DNA from: Cryomorphaceae bacterium 1068
GTDB taxonomy: Bacteria; Bacteroidota; Bacteroidia; Flavobacteriales_D; Cryomorphaceae
Reading direction: 5' to 3'
Length of the DNA: 64,000 bases
NCBI GenBank assembly: GCA_027214385.1
Contig: JAPVXR010000001.1
Coordinates: 558,001-622,000, forward strand
The translations under genes were made by a program, and so were the position numbers. Below the pieces are notes generated by a model. That model ran no database searches. It saw nothing but the letters and a program-made list of their open reading frames with translations, and was not told where the DNA came from. Shown piece by piece: positions 55,708 through 62,803 of the stretch (within the stretch, counting starts at the first letter, position 1; each line of letters begins with the position of its first letter).

Positions 55708-55747
55708 CACCGCCAAAGGAGAAATCCTGCGGCGGTGTTTCTTTTTT
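55708..55747 (+). terminator. Rho-independent terminator of the TonB receptor gene
   Basis: CACCGCC (55708-55714) pairs with GGCGGTG (55731-55737), with an inner AGGA-GAAA-TCCT stem, followed by TTTCTTTTTT. The hairpin is downstream of the receptor stop at 55680. The T-tract overlaps the stop codon of the convergent Nramp-like gene. Confidence 0.8.
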
Positions 55748-56981
55748 AGCCGAAGGCGAAGAACAGAACCGTGAGCGCCACGAGTGAAAAAATTGATGCA
55801 ATTTCCCAAATCGTGGAGATTTGAGACGGCCGATCCTTTTCGGGAACTTCATGACCCCTTACCGTTTTGAAATTCATCCAAGCAATTACCGGTGCGGAAC
55901 AAAACGAAATAACAGTTGCGATATCGACCATCGTGGTCATCGAAGCTGAGAGGATCGAAAGCAAAGTAAAAGAACCGACTGCCAGAATAATCAGGAAAGT
56001 AGGATAAGCCCACTTCTTATCATTGCTAAAGGCAATTTTTCTGCATTCTGCCAGAGAGCGCGGAATGGCATCCATGCAAGTGAGCGTTGTGCTCGCCATA
56101 GTTGCAACGGCGGCTAGTCCTACAATGTAGAAGGCCCATTGGCCCAATTGGGTCGTGTACATTCCGATGAGCATATTGGCAAAAGCCACACCCGAAGACG
56201 GGATTTCTTGATGGCTTCCGTAAAGAATTAAAGCTCCCATTCCCAAAAAAAGAACACCCATGATCATGGTGCCCCAATAGCCAAAATTGAAGTCACGTAA
56301 AGATTCTGCTTTGGTCAAATTTCCTCCCAACTCAGCTTTTTTCTCCAGTGCCCAAAGCGAGTGCCACACGGAAAGATCCAGCGGTGCGGGCATCCAGCCC
56401 ATCAGCTTCACCAGCATGGCCAGGAATAGCCCGTCGAAAACAGGGCCCAACGCTTCGAGCTTGTGAGGCGACGGATCAAAAAGCGCAGAGCCAAATGCCA
56501 CCAGCGTACAAATGGTCAATAAGAAGATGATGAGCTTGATGAATCGGTCCAGCCATTTGTATTGACCGATCAAGAGAATGACGACGGCGATTGTTAAAAT
56601 TCCTCCTGCCACTATTTGTGAAGAGGCTTCAATGCCAAAGAAGAAAGCGGAGACTCCACTCGTCACTGCAACGATCGCGGCTATAATGGCAAACATGGTT
56701 CCGATAGTGAAGAGAAGAAACAGCGCTACGTAGACCTTGCCACGGTTGAAATAGCCTTGGATCAAACTCGTATTGGTTGACAATGCGTATGCGGGACCTG
56801 CTTTAAAAAAAGGATACTTTGCCAAGTGAATGAAGATGATGGCAATGACTGGCCACCAGCCATAGGAGGCGCCCGCCCGGGTAGATTGTACCAAGTGCGA
56901 TACACCGATTGCCGCTCCTGCATAAAGCAAGCCAGGACCCAAACTGCCCAGAACAGCTGAGATTTTACTTTTCGATCCCAT
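55746..56981 (-). CDS. Nramp-superfamily transporter lacking the DPGN metal-binding motif
   Basis: A 411-residue membrane protein from ATG 56981 (MGSKSKISAVLGSLGPGLLYAG); a longer frame to 57086 would overlap the upstream gene. The Nramp fold is clear (GPGLLYAGAAIGVSHLVQSTRAG, about 11 helices), but in TM1 the canonical DPGN is replaced by GVSH (residues 26-29), and TM6 has WMPAPLD (196-202) instead of the MPHN-like A/M motif. In known Nramp proteins the Asp and Asn bind Mn2+/Fe2+; their loss suggests a different substrate. ATG and upstream TGA share a base (TGATG), so it is translated with the SLC13 permease. Confidence 0.8.
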   Translation of the reverse strand: MGSKSKISAVLGSLGPGLLYAGAAIGVSHLVQSTRAGASYGWWPVIAIIFIHLAKYPFFKAGPAYALSTNTSLIQGYFNRGKVYVALFLLFTIGTMFAIIAAIVAVTSGVSAFFFGIEASSQIVAGGILTIAVVILLIGQYKWLDRFIKLIIFLLTICTLVAFGSALFDPSPHKLEALGPVFDGLFLAMLVKLMGWMPAPLDLSVWHSLWALEKKAELGGNLTKAESLRDFNFGYWGTMIMGVLFLGMGALILYGSHQEIPSSGVAFANMLIGMYTTQLGQWAFYIVGLAAVATMASTTLTCMDAIPRSLAECRKIAFSNDKKWAYPTFLIILAVGSFTLLSILSASMTTMVDIATVISFCSAPVIAWMNFKTVRGHEVPEKDRPSQISTIWEIASIFSLVALTVLFFAFG

Positions 56982-58393
56982 CAAAATATCAATGGAACGA
57001 TGAAATAGGCATAGGCTGAAATAATCATGGCTGCCAAAATATTTAACAAGAATCCCGCGCGCATCATTTCCTGCATAGTAATGCAATTACTGGAAAAAAC
57101 GATGGCATTGGGAGGTGTAGCAATGGGTAGCATAAAGGCACAACTGGCTGCTATGGTGAGAGGTATAGCCAGTTCCATCGGGTCTCCTCCAAGCGGAATA
57201 GCTACGGCAAAAGCGATGGGTACCAATATGGAAACCAAAGCTACATTGCTCATTCCCTCGGTAAAAAAGATCGCAGCGAGTACGATGATGGCAATAACGA
57301 GGAACCATGGAATAGCTCCTGAGTCTGAAAGTACACTGCCCAATAACTCCACTAGCCCGCTGCTCGCGAGACCTGAAGCCATGGATAGTCCGCCGCCGAA
57401 TAGCAACAGTATATCCCAAGGAAGCGATCGGGTATCGTCCCAAATTAGCAGAGGCCCTCGCTCTCCGCTAGGGATAATGAATAGGCTCACTGCTGAGGCT
57501 ACTGCTATGATCGGATCGCTGAGAAAATCCATTCCGGGTAGCTTTGACAGTGGTGTTCTGAAAATCCAAAGTAAGGCAGTAGCCAAAAATACCAATTGCA
57601 CCCGTTTTTCGCCCGACCCCTGAGGCCCAAGCTTTTCAATTTTTTGATCCAAAAGCTCCCGCATACCCACCAGTCTGTTGCTCTGAACCCGAAATAGAAT
57701 CCGTGTATTGATAAAGTGGGCAAGGAAAAACAGTAGAATCGTTATCGGCAGCGCCATGATGAGCCAGTTGGTAAAACCAATCTCAATGCCCAAGGTTTCG
57801 CCTGCCAAGGCGGCTAAAACGAGATTGGGCGGGGTTCCGATCAGGGTAGCTATTCCGCCGATATTTGCTGCATAGGCCAATCCCAAAAGCAAGCAGAGCG
57901 TGAATTGATTACAGGCCTTTTCCGATGGGAATTGATCTTGTAGAAGCTGCGTAATGGACAAGCCAATGGGCAGCATCATCATGGTAGAAGCTGTATTGCT
58001 GATCCACATTGACATAACAGCCGTGGCCAGCATGCTTCCAAAAATGATCATTCTCGGCTGATTCCCACTTTTCTTAAGTATGACCAGAGCAAATCTTTGG
58101 TGGAGGTTCCAACGTTCAATGGCCAAGCCCAGAACAAACCCGCCGAAAAAGAGGTAGATGATCGGGTTCGCATAATTTGACGTAACCGACTTTAAGCTTT
58201 CAACGCCCAAAGCGGGAAATAGAACCATTGGCAGTATAGCCGTGGCTCCGATGGGTATCACTTGGGTGATCCACCAAGTGATCATCCACCCTGCAACCCC
58301 GATTACTTTGGTTTGCGAATAGTCTAGCGGAACCAAAAAGACCAGCAGTAAAAAAACGATAGGTCCTAAGGCTAGTTTGTAAATCCGCTTCAA
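56981..58393 (-). CDS. SLC13/DASS-family anion:sodium symporter
   Basis: A 470-residue permease of the divalent-anion:Na+ symporter family, with about 11-12 helices. Both signature substrate/sodium motifs are present: MSMWISNTASTMMMLPIGL (SNT motif) and CAFMLPIATPPNAIVFSS (second TPPN/SNT-like half). The family takes up succinate, citrate, malate or sulfate with Na+; which one is not decided. It is translationally coupled to the Nramp-like gene, suggesting a joint function. Confidence 0.92.
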   Translation of the reverse strand: MKRIYKLALGPIVFLLLVFLVPLDYSQTKVIGVAGWMITWWITQVIPIGATAILPMVLFPALGVESLKSVTSNYANPIIYLFFGGFVLGLAIERWNLHQRFALVILKKSGNQPRMIIFGSMLATAVMSMWISNTASTMMMLPIGLSITQLLQDQFPSEKACNQFTLCLLLGLAYAANIGGIATLIGTPPNLVLAALAGETLGIEIGFTNWLIMALPITILLFFLAHFINTRILFRVQSNRLVGMRELLDQKIEKLGPQGSGEKRVQLVFLATALLWIFRTPLSKLPGMDFLSDPIIAVASAVSLFIIPSGERGPLLIWDDTRSLPWDILLLFGGGLSMASGLASSGLVELLGSVLSDSGAIPWFLVIAIIVLAAIFFTEGMSNVALVSILVPIAFAVAIPLGGDPMELAIPLTIAASCAFMLPIATPPNAIVFSSNCITMQEMMRAGFLLNILAAMIISAYAYFIVPLIF

Positions 58394-58480: not shown

Positions 58481-59011
58481 TCAAATCAGGGCTTGCTCAG
58501 TACCCTCGGCTTCCTGTATAGGCGGAAAGTTCAAGTCCACTATGAAATGTCGAAGACGATACATTTCATCTTTGGAGAGCTTTTGCCCTCCTTGAGCCAC
58601 CAGAAATAGCACAACTCCGAGCACCACCGAACCCAGCGCCATCCAGAGACCCCACATATCTTTATCTAAGCTGTATTGAGATGAAGCAATCATAAAACCG
58701 ACCAATGCGCCGAATCCCGTCAAAGCATAAAAGAACATAAACATGGTCCAAACGACAGGCGCAGGCGCGAGCAAACAGCGAATGACGGTATGATCGTCAT
58801 CGTCATCTTTTCGAATGGAGATATCCATTTGTGGAGACCAAAAATGCCTTTTCGATGCATGTATACTCAGGATGATGTGGCCTTTTATATGGCTTGAGCC
58901 AAAGCCTTCGGGGTTATTTGATTTCAATTTGGAATCAATAAGAGCCTCTGTCTCCTCACAAGATAGGGATGTTTCTATCCTGAATCGTGGTCTGAAAGTA
59001 AGATCTGACAT
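58481..59011 (-). CDS. Two-helix membrane protein of unknown function
   Basis: A 176-residue protein from ATG 59011 (MSDLTFRPRFRIETSLS); the frame starts at a TTG at 59047, less likely. N-terminal ~100 residues are soluble with a DDDDDH acidic stretch; then two hydrophobic helices (VVWTMFMFFYALTGFGALVGFM; MWGLWMALGSVVLGVVLFLVA). No recognised family. It lies 37 bp after the YdeI-like gene, same strand, and may be co-transcribed. Confidence 0.65.
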   Translation of the reverse strand: MSDLTFRPRFRIETSLSCEETEALIDSKLKSNNPEGFGSSHIKGHIILSIHASKRHFWSPQMDISIRKDDDDDHTVIRCLLAPAPVVWTMFMFFYALTGFGALVGFMIASSQYSLDKDMWGLWMALGSVVLGVVLFLVAQGGQKLSKDEMYRLRHFIVDLNFPPIQEAEGTEQALI

Positions 59012-59048
59012 GTGGTTGATGGTTGGCTTGAAGTTAGTCAATTCCAAC

Positions 59049-59588
59049 TTAAGATGGAAAGTCGCGGGCTATTCGATTTGCTTCTTTCATCTCTTGACCC
59101 AGCTCCTTGAACTCAATTTTTCCTTTGTTCTTCTTCAAGTGTTCGGCATAGACCAATGCTCTGCGAATCTTGATTTCCGAAGACTTAACCGAGGAAACGG
59201 CGTGAATAATATTTCTCATCCTCCCTGGGGTGAGTTTGTGAAAAAGGGTGTCGGCATGTTCATCTTGGTCCAGCACTTCTCGCAGTTCTATGGGCATTTC
59301 CATCCCATATTCGCTCCGGTCTTTTTCGAGCACCACAGAGATTTCCTCTCCGTCTCTTATTCCCAATTCATTCTTCCTTTTGTTGTTGAGTAAGATATAC
59401 CACGAGCCGTTTCCATCGGGCAGTAGTGCACAATGGAATGGCCTGATTCCCTCGATACTGCAGATGATTCGCCTATCCTTACCTTCAATCAATTGGTCAG
59501 CAACTGAATTTTCAACAGGTAGAATATTCGACCAAAGATCACTATGTATCGAGGTAAGCTTGCTTACTATTTTGAACGAATCTTTCAT
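59049..59588 (-). CDS. YdeI/OmpD-associated family protein (DUF1905)
   Basis: A 179-residue protein. N-terminal DUF1905-like beta-barrel (LPVENSVADQLIEGKDRRIICSIEGIRPFHCALLPDG, NKRKNELGIRDGEEISVVLEKD), then the bacteriocin-protection/YdeI-OmdA helical C-terminal segment (LDQDEHADTLFHKLTPGRMRNIIHAVSSVKSSEIKIRRALVYAEHL, residues ~108-150). Function in the cell is uncertain. Its start is ~85 bp from the divergent M43 gene. Confidence 0.85.
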   Translation of the reverse strand: MKDSFKIVSKLTSIHSDLWSNILPVENSVADQLIEGKDRRIICSIEGIRPFHCALLPDGNGSWYILLNNKRKNELGIRDGEEISVVLEKDRSEYGMEMPIELREVLDQDEHADTLFHKLTPGRMRNIIHAVSSVKSSEIKIRRALVYAEHLKKNKGKIEFKELGQEMKEANRIARDFPS

Positions 59589-61354: not shown

Positions 61355-62803
61355 ATGAACTGGATAGATCTCTCTATTTTCTTTGTCTACATGATAGCCA
61401 TGCTGGGCGTTGGGTACTACTTCCTGAAATCAAATAAGGGATCAGAAGACTATTACCTCGCAGGCAGAAATATGGGTCCTTGGCATATCGGGATGTCCGT
61501 GGTGGCTACCGATGTTGGAGGTGGATTCTCTATCGGTCTCGGAGGGCTGGGATTTACCATGGGCATCAGCGGTAGTTGGATGCTATTCACAGGATTAATC
61601 GGTGCTTGGCTCGCTGCTGCCTTTCTCATCCCAAAGGTTTTTGAGTTGGGCAGAAGGGTTAACCTCTTCACATTTCCGCAGGTTTTTGGCGAGATCTATG
61701 GAAAACGGGTTGCCCTGCTAGCCGCCATTATATCTGCCATAGGCTACTTGGGTTTTACTTCCTCACAAATGTTGGCAGGGGCCAAATTGGCATCTGCCAC
61801 TTTCCCTTCCGTTAGCCTTGATCAGGCACTTTTGATTATGGGAATAGTCGCCGTAGTCTACACGGTCATGGGAGGCTTGAAGGCGGTCATTTATACTGAT
61901 ACCATTCAGTGGATTATACTCTTAGCCGGTCTCATATTCATTGGGCTTCCTCTGGGTTTTATTTCCATAGGTGGAATGGAAGGGTTGCACGCCGAGACGG
62001 ATCAAGCGCTCCTCAGTTTGACCAATCTTTCTTGGCAAAATATGGTCAACTGGTCCATCACGATCATACCCATTTGGTTTATCGGTATGACGCTCTACCA
62101 AAGAATATATGCTTCTCGAGATGTGAAGCAGGCTAAGAAGGCTTGGTACATCGCCGGGCTTTTTGAATGGCCTATCATGGCTTTTATGGGAGTGCTTCTC
62201 GGGCTTTTTGCCAAAGTAGCAGCCGAGCAAGGTATGTTTGCAGAGATCGGTTATGCGTCAGCTGCGGGAATGGATGCCGAAATAGGCCTACCTCTCTTAT
62301 TGCGGACCATCCTCCCTGTGGGCCTTATGGGGCTTATGATGTCTGCCTATTTCAGTGCGATTCTCTCTACCGCCGATAGCTGCTTGATGGCGTGCTCTGG
62401 AAATATTGTGTCAGATATAATGATGCGATTCGGTGTCTTTCGGGCAAAAGATGATTTGCGATTGAGTCAATGGGCCACCCTGGTGATCGGTGGTGTGGCT
62501 TTGTTGATAGCACTTTATATGGAGAGTGTTCTCGAACTCATGCTGCATTCTTATGCCTTTATGGTTTCCGGGCTTTTTATTCCTGTATTGTTCGGGCTTT
62601 ATTCTCGACGTCCTTCCGAAACCGCCGCACTATTTTCCATGATCATTGGCGGAAGCCTCACTTTGGCACTCACCATTCTCACTATTGAATTGCCGTTTGG
62701 ATTGGATCCCATCACCTTCGGCTTGCTTGCGGCTCTGTTAGCTTATTTGCTAGTTCCCAAAAAGACAAAAAAACCCACCAGGCGGATGCAAAGTGGGTTG
62801 TAG
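61355..62803 (+). CDS. Sodium:solute symporter (SSS family)
   Basis: A 482-residue transporter with about 13 helices. Conserved: MIAMLGVGYYFLKSNKGSEDYYLAGRNMGPW, SVVATDVGGGFSIGLGG, and the Na+-binding-region SAYFSAILSTADSCLMACSGN. Transports sugars, amino acids, pantothenate, or similar with Na+; substrate is not assigned. Highly similar genes are widespread in marine Flavobacteriia. Its last codons contain the terminator hairpin of the convergent lipoprotein gene. Confidence 0.92.
   Translation: MNWIDLSIFFVYMIAMLGVGYYFLKSNKGSEDYYLAGRNMGPWHIGMSVVATDVGGGFSIGLGGLGFTMGISGSWMLFTGLIGAWLAAAFLIPKVFELGRRVNLFTFPQVFGEIYGKRVALLAAIISAIGYLGFTSSQMLAGAKLASATFPSVSLDQALLIMGIVAVVYTVMGGLKAVIYTDTIQWIILLAGLIFIGLPLGFISIGGMEGLHAETDQALLSLTNLSWQNMVNWSITIIPIWFIGMTLYQRIYASRDVKQAKKAWYIAGLFEWPIMAFMGVLLGLFAKVAAEQGMFAEIGYASAAGMDAEIGLPLLLRTILPVGLMGLMMSAYFSAILSTADSCLMACSGNIVSDIMMRFGVFRAKDDLRLSQWATLVIGGVALLIALYMESVLELMLHSYAFMVSGLFIPVLFGLYSRRPSETAALFSMIIGGSLTLALTILTIELPFGLDPITFGLLAALLAYLLVPKKTKKPTRRMQSGL
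62765..62799 (-). terminator. Terminator of the lipoprotein gene, embedded in the symporter gene
   Basis: On the minus strand AACCCAC (62793-62799) pairs with GTGGGTT (62772-62778), and a run of T follows. It lies within the last codons of the convergent symporter, 30 bp past the lipoprotein stop. Confidence 0.55.

Follow-up and report, generated by a model that had tools for sequence, protein, structure and literature searches.

Canonical Nramp transporters, represented by MntH and DraNramp, build their manganese (Mn) and iron (Fe) site with the Asp and Asn of a DPGN motif in transmembrane helix (TM) 1 and the Met of an MPH motif in TM6, and a role is also assigned to a Glu in TM3. The roles of these DraNramp residues are set out in PMC12873925 and PMC8806188 (these and all other articles are cited from the portions of their text available to us). 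Outside the canonical group lies a paraphyletic set of Nramp-related proteins without DPGN and MPH, described in the available text of PMC12873925 as uncharacterised save for NRMT and the hypothesised MntG; these proteins and the Slc11 outgroup are also treated in PMC9606685 and PMC4072509. MntG/YcsG and PxpT are likewise Nramp-related, and have been published as carriers of Mn or of 5-oxoproline. Here, we compare with these systems an Nramp-like gene of Cryomorphaceae bacterium 1068, found on 64,000 nucleotides of contig JAPVXR010000001.1 (positions 558,001 to 622,000; hereafter the window, in whose numbering coordinates are given). Its product is a variant of this already recognised Nramp-related kind and, on the sequences compared, a member of a deep, widespread clade, named GxSH here. 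The reading that we favour, with confidence and doubt in equal measure, is that this LeuT-fold protein carries a small organic solute, with Gly26, His29, Trp196 and Ala199 standing in place of the Mn site. The gene and the three motifs on which the comparison turns lie as follows.

55746..56981, minus strand: coding sequence of the Nramp-related (GxSH clade) transporter, 411 amino acids (aa), ATG to TAA, with about 11 TM helices counted from the predicted model
56895..56906, minus strand: GVSH, codons 26-29, at the place of canonical TM1 DPGN; G26, S28 and H29 in 73/73 sequences
56376..56399, minus strand: GWMPAPLD, codons 195-202, in the unwound middle of TM6, where canonical proteins have GATVMPHN; the GWMP part invariant, helix break at 197-202 in the predicted model
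56058..56072, minus strand: DAIPR, codons 304-308, TM8; D304 in 57/57 aligned rows and R308 in 56/57, with DxxxR common to three distant relatives

The initial annotation of this DNA, made from the letters alone, held that GVSH occupies the place in TM1 where canonical Nramps have DPGN, and the alignments agree: GVSH follows GPG and eight residues just as DPGN does in canonical proteins, no gap is needed (MAFFT), and the canonical Asp and Asn fall on G26 and H29, respectively. An Asp or Asn elsewhere in TM1, acting as a substitute at the metal site, had been named beforehand as the counter-evidence to look for; residues 16-40 of the 411-aa protein contain no Asp, Glu or Asn, and columns 16-38 across 57 aligned rows (chosen at <80% identity) hold a lone residue of this kind, a Glu at column 38. 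With DPGN and MPH both absent, and TM1 devoid of Asp, Glu and Asn, the site does differ from the known Mn/Fe site. The companion claim, that WMPAPLD replaces the Met-containing motif of TM6, stands in part: the segment reads GWMPAPLD and has no MPH, but it still has a Met, Met197.

Aligned without gaps, as is done both by MAFFT and by hhalign against the group of Nramp-related proteins with GPGT in TM1, TM6 places Trp196 at the canonical Ala, residue 199 (Ala, Ile or Thr; Ala199 here) at the canonical Met, Pro200 at the Pro and an acid at the Asn that follows MPH (residue 202: Asp in 47 rows, Glu in 10). The TM6 helix break begins two residues past the Gly both here and, at low confidence, in a model of canonical MntH (a poor model, built on 6 rows with a predicted local distance difference test score (pLDDT) of 45.8 and used for this break only), which fits the gapless register. 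Among the 57 rows, H29, M197 and the acid at 202 are all present in 57/57. In the three distant relatives TM6 reads GYFPTT or GFAPTG, so the wider clade does not preserve Met197 (Phe or Ala at 197), while an aromatic residue, Tyr or Phe, is retained at 196. The TM3 Glu (DraNramp E134) falls in a column that holds Ala102 in the 411-aa protein, with Ala in 55/57 rows and Gly in two, as read from a single alignment in which the canonical rows are gapped nearby.

The Nramp fold proposed in the initial annotation is borne out by structure prediction. By sequence, the 411-aa protein scores 20.2 bits on Pfam PF01566 (Nramp), below the gathering cut-off of 29.8, and 15.3 bits on NCBIfam Nramp_1, under a cut-off of 50; relatives score 47.8 and 31.7 on PF01566, above the cut-off, and another 26.8, below it. 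Searched singly against the PDB, the protein returned one unrelated weak match only, and a profile of its family finds Staphylococcus capitis DMT (E ~1.5e-9) and, weakly, EleNRMT (E 0.034). An AlphaFold2 model from 54 sequences (pLDDT 90.7; predicted template-modelling score, pTM, 0.89) has a broken TM6, helical to 196, broken over 197-202 and helical again from 203, and a TM1 that DSSP assigns as unbroken. Foldseek ranks DraNramp first (8e60; E 6.6e-9, TMq 0.76) and EleNRMT fourth, and VIA-align gives Z scores of 38.5 for DraNramp, 37.0 for EleNRMT and 34.1 for model 9a52 of YcsG, through which alone YcsG was compared. The best non-Nramp structure is the amino-acid carrier SLC7A10 (32.7), with KimA and AdiC at 30-32, and the Nramp and non-Nramp ranges overlap because some Nramp rows score as low as 29.0. 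On these grounds the model can confidently be assigned an Nramp-like fold within the APC/LeuT family; the fold alone says nothing on substrate.

Set against canonical MntH and DraNramp, the protein would share fold and helix order, whereas DPGN, MPH and the TM3 Glu are replaced. NRMT, in the form of EleNRMT, has the same fold and is distant, with Ala possibly at the Met place in both, while the NRMT signature DxxG-TxxA/T (PMC8806188) contrasts with GxxH-WxxA here in the gapless register. Closer in kind are the Nramp-related 'G-motif' groups of the Slc11 outgroup (PMC12873925, PMC9606685), which share the Nramp fold without DPGN or MPH and have Gly at the place of the TM1 Asp; from these, as described in the text of the articles rather than by their figure labels, GxSH proteins are set apart by an invariable His at the Asn place, GWMP in TM6 and D304/R308 in TM8.

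That this might be a conserved Nramp subfamily was also anticipated, and the wider sample confirms it, with no known function for it in the literature found. GxSH and GWMP occur in 73/73 distinct sequences (G26, S28, H29 and G195-P198 invariant), so the GVSH/GWMP motif is no quirk of one genome; exact duplicates, one 186-aa fragment from the same genus (G323) and the three distant relatives (L038-L040) are left out of this count. Both motifs are also invariant in the 57-row alignment. Matches were found in 51/296 genomes of the phylum Bacteroidota and 57/120 of the order, that is, in 106 genomes of Bacteroidota (two being shared between the samples), and the motif was read in all but 36 of them. 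Beyond this phylum, there are matches in 7/97 genomes of Bdellovibrionota, of which the six that were read (one the genome of L004) all have GVSH and GWMPAP, and in records of a plasmid collection, Neisseria, Photobacterium and Pseudoalteromonas among them (ten records, six of them examined). Both G-A/S-S-H and DxxxR are retained in the distant relatives, which come from Skermanella, Azospirillum and Haladaptatus (profile match E 3.3e-42). In a tree of 57 rows, 21 core GxSH proteins form one branch (100/100), and do so again with the three distant relatives included (100/98), apart from the canonical MntH, NRMT-type, GPGT and GTGS groups; the tree program warned that some long branches meet, L040 among them. 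A Bacteriovoracaceae genome, of the phylum Bdellovibrionota, encodes, besides its GxSH protein, another Nramp-like one whose TM1 has GAGD (L156:1-1138).

One member of the clade may already have a published name. In Neisseria gonorrhoeae, 12 linked variants in a 417-aa Nramp gene named mntH are associated with the Gonococcal Genetic Island, an association explained via manganese balance (PMC10272882), and the Neisseria MntH homolog is described, in the text available, as functionally untested (PMC9280163). The gonococcal record examined here has one PF01566 match (L035:6974-8227), a GxSH protein of 417 codons with GGSH and GWMPAP and without DPGN or MPH. Because its length is the same and it is the sole PF01566 match, we infer, from these features rather than from a comparison of accessions, that the published mntH probably belongs to the GxSH clade, in which case the known metal-binding residues are not the basis of its presumed role in manganese balance.

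Identity with the 5-oxoproline carrier PxpT/MntG was considered, the lead being the location of ycsG beside pxpA, and was rejected: the genome of Cryomorphaceae bacterium 1068 gave no match to pxpA, and the Nramp linked to pxpA is another protein. Nramps beside pxpA in Bacteroidota have GPGT or GPGF in TM1 and lie elsewhere in the tree than GxSH. Of 22 pxpA-bearing genomes searched for both, 16 have an Nramp-related gene within ~1.4 kb of pxpA (14 GPGT, two GPGF and no GxSH; gene order was read for four loci). GxSH and pxpA occur together in 31 genomes, six of which have them on the same contig, separated by >700 kb, and 25 on separate contigs. As to simple presence, pxpA was found in 31/51 genomes with GxSH against 5/20 without. 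The GPGT and GPGF groups each occur beside 5-oxoprolinase genes (L099, L100, L102-L104, L106, L108 and L109), as if recruited twice to one pathway. Five NRMT-like genes with DNDAGG in TM1 (L165-L169) each have directly upstream an open reading frame (ORF) of 412-445 aa, possibly the MgtE-like partner described for NrmT.

Directly upstream of the Nramp-like gene, which is the sole PF01566 match at E 0.001 in its genome, stands a second transporter gene.

56981..58393, minus strand: coding sequence of a DASS/SLC13 sodium:anion symporter, 470 aa, TTG to TGA; upstream on the same strand
56979..56983, minus strand: TGATG, in which the SLC13 stop overlaps the Nramp-like start by one shared base

The overlap had been reported from the start, and coordinates, frames and the single shared base were all verified. 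The upstream product is an ordinary member of its family, with no notable difference seen from VcINDY and SLC13A2, both of which it matches: it scores 288.8 bits on TIGR00785 (cut-off 198.6) and 242.4 bits on PF00939, and its SNT and SNV motifs align with those of SLC13A2. In this organism, co-translation of the Nramp-like gene with that for a Na+/dicarboxylate-type symporter is probable; their pairing is local and does not have to imply a shared function. Further upstream of the SLC13 gene, the window holds two small genes on the same strand (58481-59588), for a 188-aa protein without a Pfam match and a DUF1905/OmdA protein, and, on the opposite strand nearby (61355-62803), a gene of the sodium:solute symporter family (PF00474).

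The further suggestion that the SLC13 gene is a coupled partner did not withstand comparison with other loci, where neighbours vary widely. Of the 73 other GxSH loci, one (G316, of the same family) has an SLC13 ORF in its flanks, lying 3.1 kb upstream and separated from the transporter gene by further ORFs; flanks of only ~1.5 kb, showing part of the adjacent gene, were available at 40 of these loci, and some loci end at a contig edge. TGATG was seen at the Cryomorphaceae bacterium 1068 locus only, the sole same-genus relative (G323) being cut by a contig end inside the gene. The SLC13 gene therefore looks like a local neighbour, and the overlap suggests co-translation here rather than a conserved system. 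Over 33 loci, two neighbour families besides the transporter are common to four family-level groups and one to three. We take these to be PorP/SprF-like and large surface proteins, common in Bacteroidota generally. In four of the 33 loci, all from one other family (f24), an OmdA relative lies ~3-6 kb from the GxSH gene (E 1e-27 to 1e-31); the window's own OmdA ORF was hidden by an overlapping ORF in this comparison.

What such a protein carries has to be judged chiefly from its central site. As a carrier of a small organic solute it would share the alternating-access mechanism of Nramps and APC carriers, centred on TM1 and TM6, with a pocket lined by Gly26, Ser28 and His29 of TM1 and by the aromatic Trp196 and the small residue at 199 of TM6; the solute, perhaps amino-acid-like or a carboxylate, would be held by the TM1 backbone, and His29, Asp/Glu202 and Asp304/Arg308 would be candidate contacts for protons or substrate. 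It is because of this pocket that a small organic solute appears the most likely cargo. A precedent may be found in PxpT, which is needed for growth on 5-oxoproline, although its authors allow for metal transport too (PMC13274462), and the published readings of the B. subtilis homolog are in conflict between Mn and 5-oxoproline (PMC13274462, PMC10448178). Several observations weigh against an organic cargo. The literature found holds no substrate evidence for the GxSH clade, while Nramp-related proteins that have been studied genetically, MntG (PMC10448178) and MumT (PMC5050338), are reported Mn importers, and for an outgroup protein of Acidobacterium Mn transport is reported as likely (PMC4072509). 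No functionally telling neighbour recurs across family-level groups in the 33 loci, so no gene neighbour hints at the substrate, and a comparison of 18 loci and the 64-kb window with Rfam gave no match. Two alignments, HMMER against 5m95 and hhalign against canonical MntH, contradict the gapless register of TM6: both insert a two-residue gap and place Met197 at the canonical Met. Finally, among the 296 genomes of the phylum, 51 have GxSH and 107 an MntH-type gene (defined by matching a single canonical protein with E no higher than 1e-60; DPGN was read in 13 of the 107), and none has both where 18.4 would be expected, a pattern that could reflect replacement of a metal importer.

These same points on register, on relatives and on co-occurrence speak for the principal rival, which is possible though it persuades us less: a divalent-metal carrier with a rebuilt site, in which His29, Asp/Glu202 and perhaps Met197 replace Asp, Asn and Met, so that the protein would prefer a different metal or import it without coupling. 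In its favour too are the constancy of H29, M197 and the acid at 202, and the case of NRMT, which carries Mg and Mn with an altered site (PMC8806188). Against it, TM1 offers neither acid nor Asn, the TM3 Glu is absent, residue 196 is aromatic and Met197 is lost in the three distant relatives. The co-occurrence pattern, moreover, is striking by genome (p 6.6e-12) and by genus (3e-5) but within chance by family (GxSH in 6 and MntH-type in 23 of 51 families, the number taken from labels, with an overlap of 1; p ~0.15, or 0.12 with 49 families). In the order sample MntH occurs in 1/120 genomes, itself without GxSH. In Bdellovibrionota the strongest Nramp matches are absent from the 7 GxSH genomes, which adds little, since the six such matches read comprise five NRMT-like ones (DNDAGG) and a single one with DPGN. 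For divalent-metal uptake, the genome of Cryomorphaceae bacterium 1068 itself offers a ZnuA-type binding protein and a ZIP as alternative candidates; ZnuA-type proteins were found in 7/13 GxSH genomes checked and 0/3 without GxSH, and ZIP in 16/16, numbers too few to use. A joint role of the two genes at the locus, in which the SLC13 symporter and the Nramp-like protein would form one functional unit for a metal-carboxylate complex such as metal-citrate, is improbable: both are carriers, encoded on the same strand with a one-base overlap, and one same-family genome has the SLC13 ORF 3.1 kb away, but an adjacent SLC13 gene was seen at 0/73 other loci, within the flank lengths and contig ends given above, and neighbours differ widely. 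Less likely still would be a sensor-like (transceptor) or other non-transport role within the Nramp fold, for which the want of any clue to the substrate might be cited; against it, conservation extends to every helix, to the broken TM6 and to the central motif, all of which are intact, and there is no extra domain. It is hardly credible that this is an ordinary canonical Nramp with its motif misread or misaligned, since, although Pfam and Foldseek place the protein nearest to Nramp, both profile scores fall short of their cut-offs, TM1 has no Asp, Glu or Asn and the core GxSH clade holds a branch of its own.

The cargo of non-canonical Nramp-related proteins is a matter on which genetics conflict, with Mn proposed for MntG and MumT and 5-oxoproline for PxpT, and the GxSH clade gives a clean test because the same few TM1 and TM6 residues can be checked in any member. 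We suggest, more tentatively than for the single protein, that GxSH proteins are a separate family of organic-solute transporters, found in many bacteria and some archaea, where its members are labelled Nramp 'divalent metal transporter', the gonococcal mntH included. If true, a branch lying deep among the Nramps of the LeuT fold would serve non-metal substrates.

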